From the NCBI GenBank assembly GCA_009702465.1, contig WLHY01000009.1, positions 1-13,065 of the forward strand: a DNA stretch of 13,065 nt, written 5' to 3'. This DNA comes from Actinomycetota bacterium (GTDB lineage Bacteria; Actinomycetota; Actinomycetes; Nanopelagicales; Nanopelagicaceae). This document shows, piece after piece, positions 2,134 to 3,985 of the stretch. The notes below the pieces were generated by a model. The model was not told where the DNA came from, did no database searches, and worked only from the letters and a program-made list of their open reading frames with translations. The translations under genes were made by a program, and so were the position numbers. The number at the start of each line of letters is the position of its first letter. Position 1 is the first letter of the stretch.

Positions 2134-2439
2134 TTACCGACGCTGTACACCTTTTTTACCCCAGTAGACCCAAAGATTTAAAACAGATAAAACCATAGCA
2201 AAGCCAAAGAGCAGATCCTCTGCAGGTGCTGATGCAATTCGCCAACCAATTATCTTCTCCTCTGAGTACATAACAATCTCTCTAGAGGTCAGCCACCAAT
2301 TAGTAATTAATTGAAAGAAAATAATGATGGCATATGATGTCCAAAATACTTTTCGAGTAGTTAATCGGTTCTTAATAATAAATAGATCAAGGATCACCGC
2401 TGCAATAACAGCGCAGATTGCTAGTTGGGTGTAGCTCAT
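2134..2439 (-). CDS. crtYd: Lycopene cyclase subunit CrtYd
   Basis: Small membrane subunit of the heterodimeric (CrtYc/CrtYd) lycopene cyclase found in Actinobacteria, which closes ionone rings on the ends of lycopene. It has 101 residues with three hydrophobic helices and the family signature GWRIASAPAEDLLFGF, with PAED at residues 72-75. Its ATG overlaps the crtYc stop in an ATGA (2436-2439), so the two subunits are translated together. It could instead be a CrtYf-type subunit of the C50 cyclases (decaprenoxanthin or sarcinaxanthin type), because the two subfamilies look alike. No crtEb elongase is visible, but the neighbourhood to the left is cut. It runs against crtB with no gap between stop codons. 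Confidence 0.88.
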   Translation of the reverse strand: MSYTQLAICAVIAAVILDLFIIKNRLTTRKVFWTSYAIIIFFQLITNWWLTSREIVMYSEEKIIGWRIASAPAEDLLFGFAMVLSVLNLWVYWGKKGVQRR

Positions 2440-2768
2440 GCCTCATCTCCCACGATCCACTTTTTCTTCACCGTACGTACCGCCTCAATTGTCATGATGG
2501 CCGCAATCGGCACGATTAAAAAGAAGAAGTACTCCTCAACTGGTATGCCAAAGGGTCCAAATACACCGAGGATTTGTTCAGGATCAAAGTGCCAATGATC
2601 TTGTGAGATTGCATAGGCATCCCAAATTATAAATATGGTAGCTACCGGCAAGACGCTTAGTAGCACCCGTTTAAATCGACGCAGTACCCCAACCTTTAAG
2701 ACAATCTCCAGCCAAAAGGAGCCGACTACTGTAAAGGCCAACATTGCGACATATCCGAATCTGAGCAC
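2436..2768 (-). CDS. crtYc: Lycopene cyclase subunit CrtYc
   Basis: Partner subunit of CrtYd. It is a three-helix membrane protein with the conserved IIWDAYAI and HFDP segments (residues 47-63) and the catalytic-type acidic motif GIPVEEYFFF (E78, E79). I place the start at GTG 2768-2766, giving 110 residues. The minus-strand box TATAGT (2780-2775) lies exactly 6 bases before this GTG, as at other leaderless starts in the window, and the product then opens directly with the first membrane helix as in relatives. An upstream in-frame TTG at 2807-2805 would add 13 residues but lies inside a hairpin and has no Shine-Dalgarno. Together with CrtYd it gives a cyclic C40 carotene; a C50 variant is not excluded. 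Confidence 0.87.
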   Translation of the reverse strand: MLRFGYVAMLAFTVVGSFWLEIVLKVGVLRRFKRVLLSVLPVATIFIIWDAYAISQDHWHFDPEQILGVFGPFGIPVEEYFFFLIVPIAAIMTIEAVRTVKKKWIVGDEA

Positions 2769-2774
2769 TACATA

Positions 2775-2782
2775 ACTATAAT
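2775..2782. promoter_or_regulatory. Overlapping divergent -10 elements for crtYc and pnuT
   Basis: The 8 bases ACTATAAT carry a perfect TATAAT on the plus strand (2777-2782) and TATAGT on the minus strand (2780-2775). The plus-strand start point would be about 2789, giving a leader of about 110 bases for pnuT. The minus-strand start point would be 2768, the first base of the crtYc GTG. No convincing -35 hexamer is seen on either side. Both promoters use the same melted DNA, so they probably compete. The assignment is from sequence only. Confidence 0.55.
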
Positions 2783-2789
2783 CAAAAAA

Positions 2790-2809
2790 TATTGCTATCG
2801 TTAGCAATA
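2790..2809. repeat. Perfect 8-bp hairpin at riboswitch 5' end
   Basis: TATTGCTA (2790-2797), loop TCGT, TAGCAATA (2802-2809). On the plus strand it would form the first structure of the pnuT leader RNA, immediately before helix P2 of the riboswitch. On the minus strand the stem is followed directly by six T residues (2789-2784), the form of an intrinsic terminator. It would stop antisense transcripts coming out of pnuT before they reach crtYc. The stem is AT-rich, so terminator strength is uncertain. Confidence 0.5.
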
Positions 2810-2884
2810 CGGGAGCTAAGAGATTTGGCTGAGAGGATCTGAAATTCAGATCGACCGGGTGACCAGTTCGGTAATGCGAACTGG
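2810..2884 (+). promoter_or_regulatory. TPP (THI-box) riboswitch, variant 3' arm
   Basis: The 5' half follows the actinobacterial THI-box: CGG (2810-2812) pairs with CCG (2855-2857) as P2; GCTAA (2815-2819) pairs with TTGGC (2825-2829) as P3; the invariant CTGAGA pyrimidine-sensing strand lies at 2829-2834. GATCTGA/TCAGATC (2836-2852) forms P3a. The 3' half keeps the GTAATG loop (2871-2876) of L5. However, CCAGTTCG (2863-2870) and CGAACTGG (2877-2884) pair fully, where the family normally has an internal loop between P4 and P5 that helps hold the pyrophosphate. No P1 helix is apparent. The Shine-Dalgarno AAGGAG (2887-2892) follows 2 bases later, which suggests control of translation. Confidence 0.78.
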
Positions 2885-2898
2885 AAAAGGAGTAAGTA

Positions 2899-3462
2899 AT
2901 GAGCGCATTAGAAATAGCAGCTTTTTTAATCTCACTAGTAGCGGTAACGCTCGGTGCATTAGGTATGAGATTTGCCTGGCCATGGTGGGTTACAGGTTCA
3001 ATTTTGTATGGAGTTCTCTTCTACCAATCTGAGTACTACGCCAGCGCACTGCTTCAACTAGTTTTTATTGCAGCGGCGATCTGGGGTTGGATTGGTTGGG
3101 GTAAAGAGGGAGCAAAGCCAAGGTACAGCAAAAATAATGAGCGATTAATAATCATCTCGGTTTTAATCCTAGCTACCTTGATTTTATATCCAGTGTTGAT
3201 TGATATTGGCGCAACATCATCTGCGATCGAGGCATTTGGATTTACTGGAAGTGTGATCGCGCAGGTATTGATGGTGCTACAAAGATTTGAAGCATGGCCG
3301 TTGTGGCTAGTGGTGGATCTGGCATATACCTACCAATACTTTAAGGGTGAGCTATACCTAACCTCAGCTTTGTACTTGATTTTTTCAGTCATCGCCATAT
3401 TTGGCTGGGTACGTTGGCAGAAAGAGTCAAAGGTCAATGCAGTACCAAACTTTATTAAGTAA
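2899..3462 (+). CDS. pnuT: PnuC-family vitamin transporter, probably thiamine transporter PnuT
   Basis: Membrane protein of 187 residues in the PnuC family, facilitators that take up an unphosphorylated vitamin which is then trapped by phosphorylation. Family blocks are AWPWWVTGSILYGVLFYQ, LLQLVFIAAAIWGWIGW and, near the C-terminus, EAWPLWLVVDLAYTYQYF followed by a last helix ending FGWVRWQK. PnuC members import nicotinamide riboside (PnuC), riboflavin (PnuX) or thiamine (PnuT). The THI-box leader directly upstream argues for thiamine. The ATG at 2899 is set by AAGGAG (2887-2892) with a 6-base spacer, the best ribosome site on this strand. The next gene begins inside its last codons. Transporter identity is firm; the substrate is inferred from the riboswitch. 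Confidence 0.87.
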   Translation: MSALEIAAFLISLVAVTLGALGMRFAWPWWVTGSILYGVLFYQSEYYASALLQLVFIAAAIWGWIGWGKEGAKPRYSKNNERLIIISVLILATLILYPVLIDIGATSSAIEAFGFTGSVIAQVLMVLQRFEAWPLWLVVDLAYTYQYFKGELYLTSALYLIFSVIAIFGWVRWQKESKVNAVPNFIK

Positions 3463-3985
3463 TCTGGCGAAGGTTAAATCTGGAGATTTAATTGCAATTG
3501 ATGGACCAGCTGGCTCTGGTAAATCCACCCTTGCCAAATCTCTTGTAAAGGATTTACCCGACTCAGTAATCATCGCAGTTGATGATTTATATGATGGCTG
3601 GGCGGATGCATTTACGCCCAGATTGACCGCCAGAGTAATTGAACAAGTGCTTTTGCCAATCTCAAAAAATCAAGAGTTTAGATATGATATTTATGATTGG
3701 CATAAAGCAAAGTTTGTTAAATCTAATGTGATTCCACGAGATCAGATATATATTTTGGAAGGGGTCTGCGCTGGACACCAGAGCTTTCGTGGATTTATTG
3801 ATGTATTAATCTGGCTCGATATCTCAGATGAGATTGGTTTAACACGTGTATTAAATCGAGATGGTGAAGTAATTCGCGACCAAATGCTCCACTTCCAACA
3901 GGCACAAAGAAGCCACTTTGCCCAAGATTTAACGGAAGCTGCAGCGGATTACATATTTGATGGCGTGCCGAAAACTATCCTTTAG
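3437..3985 (+). CDS. P-loop small-molecule kinase, uridine kinase-like
   Basis: A 182-residue cytosolic P-loop protein with Walker A GPAGSGKST (residues 23-31), acidic DDLYDGW (49-55) where related kinases bind substrate or Mg, YDWHK (86-90), and a lid-like arginine segment (TRVLNRDG, 136-143). It resembles the short actinobacterial proteins annotated as uridine kinase or (d)CMP kinase, whose real substrate is to my knowledge unsettled. I chose the ATG at 3437, which puts the P-loop near the N-terminus and overlaps pnuT by 26 bases. An ATG at 3401 would add 12 residues read from pnuT coding sequence. Tight coupling to a vitamin transporter suggests it phosphorylates the imported vitamin or a related nucleoside. 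That role is inference only. Confidence 0.72.
   Translation: MQYQTLLSNLAKVKSGDLIAIDGPAGSGKSTLAKSLVKDLPDSVIIAVDDLYDGWADAFTPRLTARVIEQVLLPISKNQEFRYDIYDWHKAKFVKSNVIPRDQIYILEGVCAGHQSFRGFIDVLIWLDISDEIGLTRVLNRDGEVIRDQMLHFQQAQRSHFAQDLTEAAADYIFDGVPKTIL

Follow-up and report, generated by a model that had tools for sequence, protein, structure and literature searches.

The leader of a pnuT-type importer gene was found to be an aptamer of the TPP riboswitch family (THI element, RF00059) in which P4 and P5 are fused into one arm and the internal loop J4/5 is missing. The structure, conservation and gene contexts of this short-arm leader are firm, and it recurs throughout the order to which the acI bacteria belong. 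Our best explanation, which we hold with about half confidence, is a working TPP-family aptamer minus J4/5 that blocks translation of a pnuT-kinase operon and responds to thiamine (or TMP) instead of TPP.

The P4/P5 arm of the leader lacks J4/5

We analyzed a stretch of 13,065 nucleotides (the window), which is part of a 0.89-Mb draft genome. The leader lies between a divergent open reading frame (2436-2807, minus strand) and the pnuT-type gene. The features are:

2796..2801, plus strand: putative -10-like element TATCGT within GCTANNNT, at the place expected for the P1 5' strand (from the upstream pattern)
2810..2812, plus strand: P2 5' strand CGG, partner 2855-2857, invariant in the aligned leaders (predicted fold)
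2815..2829, plus strand: P3 hairpin GCTAA / TTGGC (RF00059 alignment, predicted fold, aligned leaders)
2829..2835, plus strand: CTGAGAG, triloop region that binds the pyrimidine, identical in all 107 leaders (alignment; role from the excerpt of PMC2258182)
2836..2852, plus strand: P3a hairpin GATCTGA / TCAGATC (predicted fold, aligned leaders)
2855..2857, plus strand: P2 3' strand CCG (predicted fold, aligned leaders)
2863..2884, plus strand: fused P4/P5 arm, 8 bp and loop GTAATG, J4/5 missing on both strands (sequence, RF00059 alignment, relatives, fold)
2863-2870: arm 5' strand CCAGTTCG (sequence)
2871-2876: arm loop GTAATG (sequence)
2877-2884: arm 3' strand CGAACTGG, pairing fully with CCAGTTCG (sequence)
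2887..2892, plus strand: putative Shine-Dalgarno-like AAGGAG, 2 nt past the arm end (sequence)
2899..3462, plus strand: pnuT-type importer, PF04973, 127.6 bits (profile match)
3437..3985, plus strand: candidate thiamine kinase, a P-loop protein of uridine-kinase/PRK type whose gene overlaps pnuT

Direct reading of 2863-2884 gives an 8-bp arm closed by the loop GTAATG without interruption. The RF00059 alignment (cmscan, Infernal) spans 2799-2903 with 37.5 bits (E 2e-4 in the window); it does not reach the gathering score of 54.3 bits and deletes 2 nt on each side of P4/P5, which are both strands of J4/5. A preliminary description had noted the absence of the internal loop and had set this covariance alignment as a check. 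Both agree, since RF00059 matches only with J4/5 deleted and no canonical P4-loop-P5 is recovered. Neither cmscan nor RNAfold returned a normal P4-loop-P5 in another register. For 2805-2902, the minimum free energy fold and the centroid fold both consist of P2, P3, P3a and the 8-bp arm, with a z of -4.1 against 200 shuffles. P1, likewise described as not visible, is missing from these folds, and three of its five pairs are non-standard in the RF00059 alignment. The window leader has the P2/P3 arm with the UGAGA triloop and the L5 U-turn loop (UAAU type) of a TPP riboswitch, but not the P4-J4/5-P5 arm with its 3' CG or the P1 closing helix.

Short-arm leaders are conserved and their arm covaries within the order

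We searched 296 genomes of the order with RF00059, fetched all 141 matches and read their arms. At E <= 0.05, 132 of the 296 genomes match, and 15 do so above the cut-off; the thiamine leaders of most genomes in acI's order are missed at the Rfam cut-off. The matches comprise 114 short-arm leaders, 24 normal-arm leaders (P4-J4/5-P5 with the 3' CG or a close relative, CCTGAT..CGTAGG type) and three non-aptamers (L139, L140, L141). The short-arm leaders reduce to 108 distinct sequences, of which 107 were aligned, leaving out L137 at a contig end. All 8 arm pairs are formed in 105 of these 107. The arm has no bulge in 55 leaders with 8 pairs and one with 7 pairs; a 1-nt bulge on the 3' strand is found in 50 with 8 pairs and one with 7. 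An uninterrupted arm had been claimed, which is correct for the window leader but not for the 51 relatives with this single bulge. All 107 leaders have identical CGGGAGC, GCTGAGAGG and GACCG segments and, at the loop end, an identical AATGCG. Covarying arms include CCAGTTCG/CGAATTGG, CCAGTCCG/CGGATTGG, CCCGTCCG/CGGACG-T-GG and CTGGTCCG/CGGATC-T-AG. Two genomes (G007, G085) carry two short-arm leaders each on separate contigs, which mixed bins or two copies may explain.

A covariance model built from 54 bulge-free leaders (R1) matched 272 of the 296 genomes at E <= 1e-3 and 257 at E <= 1e-10 (model matches, part of them read base by base). In 14 of the 15 weaker genomes, the RF00059 match is a normal arm. 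Covariation of the 8-bp arm, another check set beforehand, was assessed on 100 hand-picked aligned matches (96 from the order, 4 from outside; 98 distinct). In the 98 distinct rows 97.6% of the arm cells pair, and five of the eight arm pairs changed on both sides. The covariation score of the 100 aligned matches was reached by none of 500 shuffles, with an alignment fitted to a model that favours structure and shuffles that ignore relatedness. The normal loop, whose presence in homologous leaders had been named as grounds for refutation, is absent from the homologs examined: the 114 pnuT-type leaders read in the order are all short-armed. The relatives (107 distinct leaders, R1 in 257 of 296 genomes) also rule out an oddity of one genome.

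The short arm is conserved and covaries and is therefore not a product of decay. This leaves little of the earlier suggestion of a degenerate aptamer. A fossil leader without ligand binding, retained merely as 5' untranslated region, would fit the score under the Rfam cut-off and the missing P1. We regard it as very improbable, since pocket and loop bases are invariant, the arm covaries and R1 matches strongly in those 257 genomes.

The missing CG and the phosphate half of the binding site

According to excerpts of the structural literature, the UGAGA triloop takes up the intercalated pyrimidine of TPP and the P5 loop contains a U-turn (PMC2258182), the direct contacts to the TPP beta-phosphate are made by C67 and G68 (PMC6414600), and the TPP site is bipartite, with thiamine and TMP thought to touch one half only (PMC4775224). 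The leaders keep CTGAGAG and lack J4/5. We take C67/G68 to be the 3' CG of J4/5 (C77/G78 in another numbering). With this assignment and a bipartite site, the part that was lost is the phosphate part. The view that the pyrimidine-sensing half is retained and the diphosphate-sensing half altered is thereby upheld: CTGAGAG is invariant, J4/5 is absent, and the presumed beta-phosphate contact has gone with it.

TPP might still be sensed by such an RNA if the bulge, the P4 groove or metal ions replaced the J4/5 contacts, which would make it a slimmed TPP riboswitch. We consider this doubtful, though a serious contender. The missing 3' CG, taken as a direct beta-phosphate contact (PMC6414600, excerpt), speaks against it, as does one genus (g11) in which a CG does stand at the place of the pocket. 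There, the CG covaries as base pairs (CCCG/CGGACG with CCCA/CGGATG) and is therefore paired rather than part of a pocket.

Short-arm leaders precede an importer-kinase operon

The leader had been placed upstream of a pnuT-type importer, and the PF04973 match bears this out. A PnuT homolog follows 111 of the 114 short-arm leaders of the order; at the remaining three (L055, L113, L137) the contig ends 5-67 bases past the match. The P-loop kinase is present at 106 of the 111 pnuT loci, and the five without it (L053, L068, L070, L079, L116) end 200-730 bases past the match. No PnuT match was found at any of the 24 normal-arm loci in the order. The first gene there is ThiB-like at 12 loci, ThiO at 5, CytX-like at 4, ThiC at 2 and YkoE-like at 1, and importers lie downstream of 17 of the 24. 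At E <= 1e-10, R1 matches none of the 18 genomes that carry a normal-arm aptamer; by count, a genome therefore has either the short or the normal arm. Synteny is shared among the order's pnuT loci, which most likely go back to a single origin, and counting them therefore adds no independent support for a ligand. Two contigs titled Bifidobacterium breve (L247, L262) carry the acI-type pnuT leader, and these records look misnamed.

By sequence comparison the importer protein is nearest to PnuC; we call it PnuT because of its gene context and the acI work (PMC5301498, excerpt). That work found a THI element upstream of PnuC-like genes in each of four acI strains; it calls acI the most abundant freshwater bacteria and reports them as thiamine auxotrophs (Kang 2017, PMC5301498, excerpt). 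The family tags of the kinase are general (PRK/uridine kinase), and uridine kinase and nicotinamide riboside kinase are among its weak matches in the PDB.

We took a census of thiamine enzymes in 61 genomes of the family, 59 of them at >= 90% completeness and <= 5% contamination. Thiamine pyrophosphokinase (TPK) was found in none of the 61 (TIGR01378, PF04263; controls match 8 of 14 named genomes each). ThiL matched in all 61 at E <= 0.01 and above the cut-off in 56; the weakest match (G112, E 0.0026) is probably another enzyme. ThiE matched in 10 of the 61 at E <= 1e-3 and above the cut-off in five, all normal-arm genomes. These counts leave the step from thiamine to TMP without a known enzyme in the family, and the kinase overlapping pnuT is therefore a candidate for it. 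The gene product of 3437-3985 may be an undescribed thiamine kinase, likely the missing step in vitamin use of these bacteria.

TMP would be the expected product of this kinase and could act as feedback on the import-and-trap step. The cells appear to need TMP from thiamine, as the TPK, ThiL and ThiE counts indicate, and the shortened site might accommodate one phosphate. We nevertheless think TMP an improbable ligand, as operons of the Slackia type (described below) contain a TPK-like gene. The known product of TPK is TPP, not TMP. Continued sensing of TPP gains from the same census, since TPP is the end product and ThiL matches in every genome.

Putative promoter and expression platform

Among 109 distinct upstream stretches, 86 have the pattern GCTANNN(T/C) 15-18 nt before CGGGAG, and the base preceding CGGGAG is A in 85%. 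Read as a -10 box, the pattern puts the start of transcription at P2 and leaves no space for a P1 strand. For the window leader we infer a start near 2808-2810, and the P1 strand is probably never transcribed. A perfect 8-bp hairpin, TATTGCTA-TCGT-TAGCAATA, spans the presumed -10 box of the window (2790-2809) and is by eye also present in G088 (L086); it is perhaps a chance overlap with the promoter.

With the Shine-Dalgarno-like motif 2 nt past the arm, direct blocking of translation would be the simplest mechanism. In this model the aptamer is a working one that has lost J4/5 and its CG but still has its pocket for the pyrimidine and the U-turn of L5. The leader would begin at P2 without P1 and abut the ribosome-binding site of an operon for thiamine import and phosphorylation (pnuT-kinase). 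A ligand with the thiamine pyrimidine would dock in CTGAGAG, the two arms would pack via L5, and the folded RNA would cover the Shine-Dalgarno sequence 2 nt downstream, so that importer translation would drop when the vitamin is plentiful.

CG-less arms outside the order

R1 was run over 394 genomes of the class and 396 of the phylum, sets that include order and class members already counted, and matched 184 and 97 genomes, respectively. Part of these matches was read, and outside the order most loci read have CG-bearing arms. We graded CG-less arms as strict (no more than a single 1-nt bulge or a single mismatch) or looser (2-3 unpaired bases, CG not in place). Some loci (e.g. L203, L227, L238, L241, L250, L295), where the automatic scan put the arm in the wrong place or overlooked it, were read by eye. 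Strict CG-less arms lie upstream of ThiT (L174-L176, L248, the Coriobacteriia-titled L281, L295; L175 is the same place as the Slackia-titled L301), of PnuT with a NadR-like kinase (L345, L360; family f32), of YkoE (L207, L271) and of ThiO (L210), the sole clear biosynthetic exception. Looser ones precede PnuT with a NadR-like kinase (L203-L206 of family f39, and L263; L204, on a contig titled Candidatus Nanopelagicales, is the same locus as L223) and CytX (L349, L350, L352; family f14). In total, 18 importer loci (10 strict) and one biosynthetic locus (L210, strict) are CG-less; L361 (ThiC, CA replacing CG) is ambiguous and outside these counts. A TPK-like gene follows ThiT in L174-L176, L248 and L281, and by eye in L295. 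The Slackia-type leader (L174-L176) by eye has a P1, ACCGT/ACGGT, and a long spacer to the ThiT start, which is another expression platform.

CG-bearing arms outside the order precede ThiT (L178, L179, L188, L276), PnuT (L215), YkoE (most YkoE loci, many from one genus), CytX (L362; with a shortened arm L208, L209, L344) and biosynthetic genes. The CG-less count leaves out arms that are shorter on the 5' side but have their CG (L208, L209, L344, L183, L273, L282 and others). By count, CG-less arms are enriched before importers, as a tendency and not a rule, in a sample picked by R1 similarity or pattern with many related loci. Three loci (L345, L360, L215) have a pnuT-type gene followed by a kinase that by eye is NadR-like and not uridine-kinase-like; the CG is absent, absent and kept, respectively. 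A pattern scan of named genomes yielded at least 120 stretches, with at least 80 loci. Apparent short arms among them in Streptococcus and other Firmicutes proved on reading to be normal CCTGAT..CGTAGG-type arms with a short J2/4 and were set aside.

Which ligand does the short-arm leader sense?

Position before an importer proves little for thiamine, because importers are also found downstream of CG-bearing arms (17 of 24 in the order; ThiT and PnuT elsewhere). TPP sensing suffices for importer genes, since CG-bearing arms stand before ThiT, PnuT, most YkoE and several CytX genes. To our knowledge, TPP is the ligand of the studied members of the riboswitch. Other points also count against thiamine: the 1-nt bulge found in 51 of 107 leaders could take over as a pocket, CG-less arms stand before ThiO (L210) and, less clearly, ThiC (L361), and TPP is still the end product in these cells. 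The thiO and perhaps thiC arms are what a slimmed TPP riboswitch would allow, and arms minus 5' loop bases with the 3' CG kept (L177-L181, L186, L188, L343, L357-L359) favour it as well. These latter loci are possible intermediates.

We nonetheless infer that thiamine is the likeliest ligand, because of the exact part that was lost and its recurrence before importer-kinase operons. Coenzyme specificity of the TPP aptamer is usually attributed to its phosphate half. The lineage-wide natural loss of this half, with the rest strongly constrained, offers a clean test of whether such a fold could be converted to thiamine. More tentatively, and leaning somewhat toward doubt, we suggest a widespread variant that senses unphosphorylated thiamine or its pyrimidine moiety by losing the phosphate half. 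Such a variant would have evolved repeatedly within Actinomycetota, upstream of importers and often together with a vitamin-trapping kinase, and in the most abundant bacteria of lakes it would be the chief means of thiamine control.

Comparison with known systems

The occurrence of the element in acI is already published (PMC5301498, excerpt), and the missing loop was not found in print. A TPP aptamer without J4/5, or a thiamine riboswitch, was not found described in the available parts of the open-licence literature, including PMC6478431, PMC10043782 and PMC2258182. The acI THI element is very likely the same element before the same gene; its presence alone, not the missing loop, is reported in the excerpt (PMC5301498). 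With the TPP riboswitch (THI element, RF00059) the short-arm leader shares P2, P3, P3a, the CTGAGAG triloop, GACCG, the UAAU-type L5 loop and the thiamine gene context, whereas it lacks J4/5, the unpaired 3' CG and P1 and scores under the cut-off. The HMP-PP riboswitch (thiS motif) is also an RNA sensor of a thiamine pathway compound, but it differs in structure and sits inside a terminator, as its excerpt describes (PMC6478431). Variants of the guanine class belong to a different class from the short-arm leader and are reported as experimentally characterised; as excerpted, they provide a precedent for a known riboswitch class with another ligand (PMC9295807).
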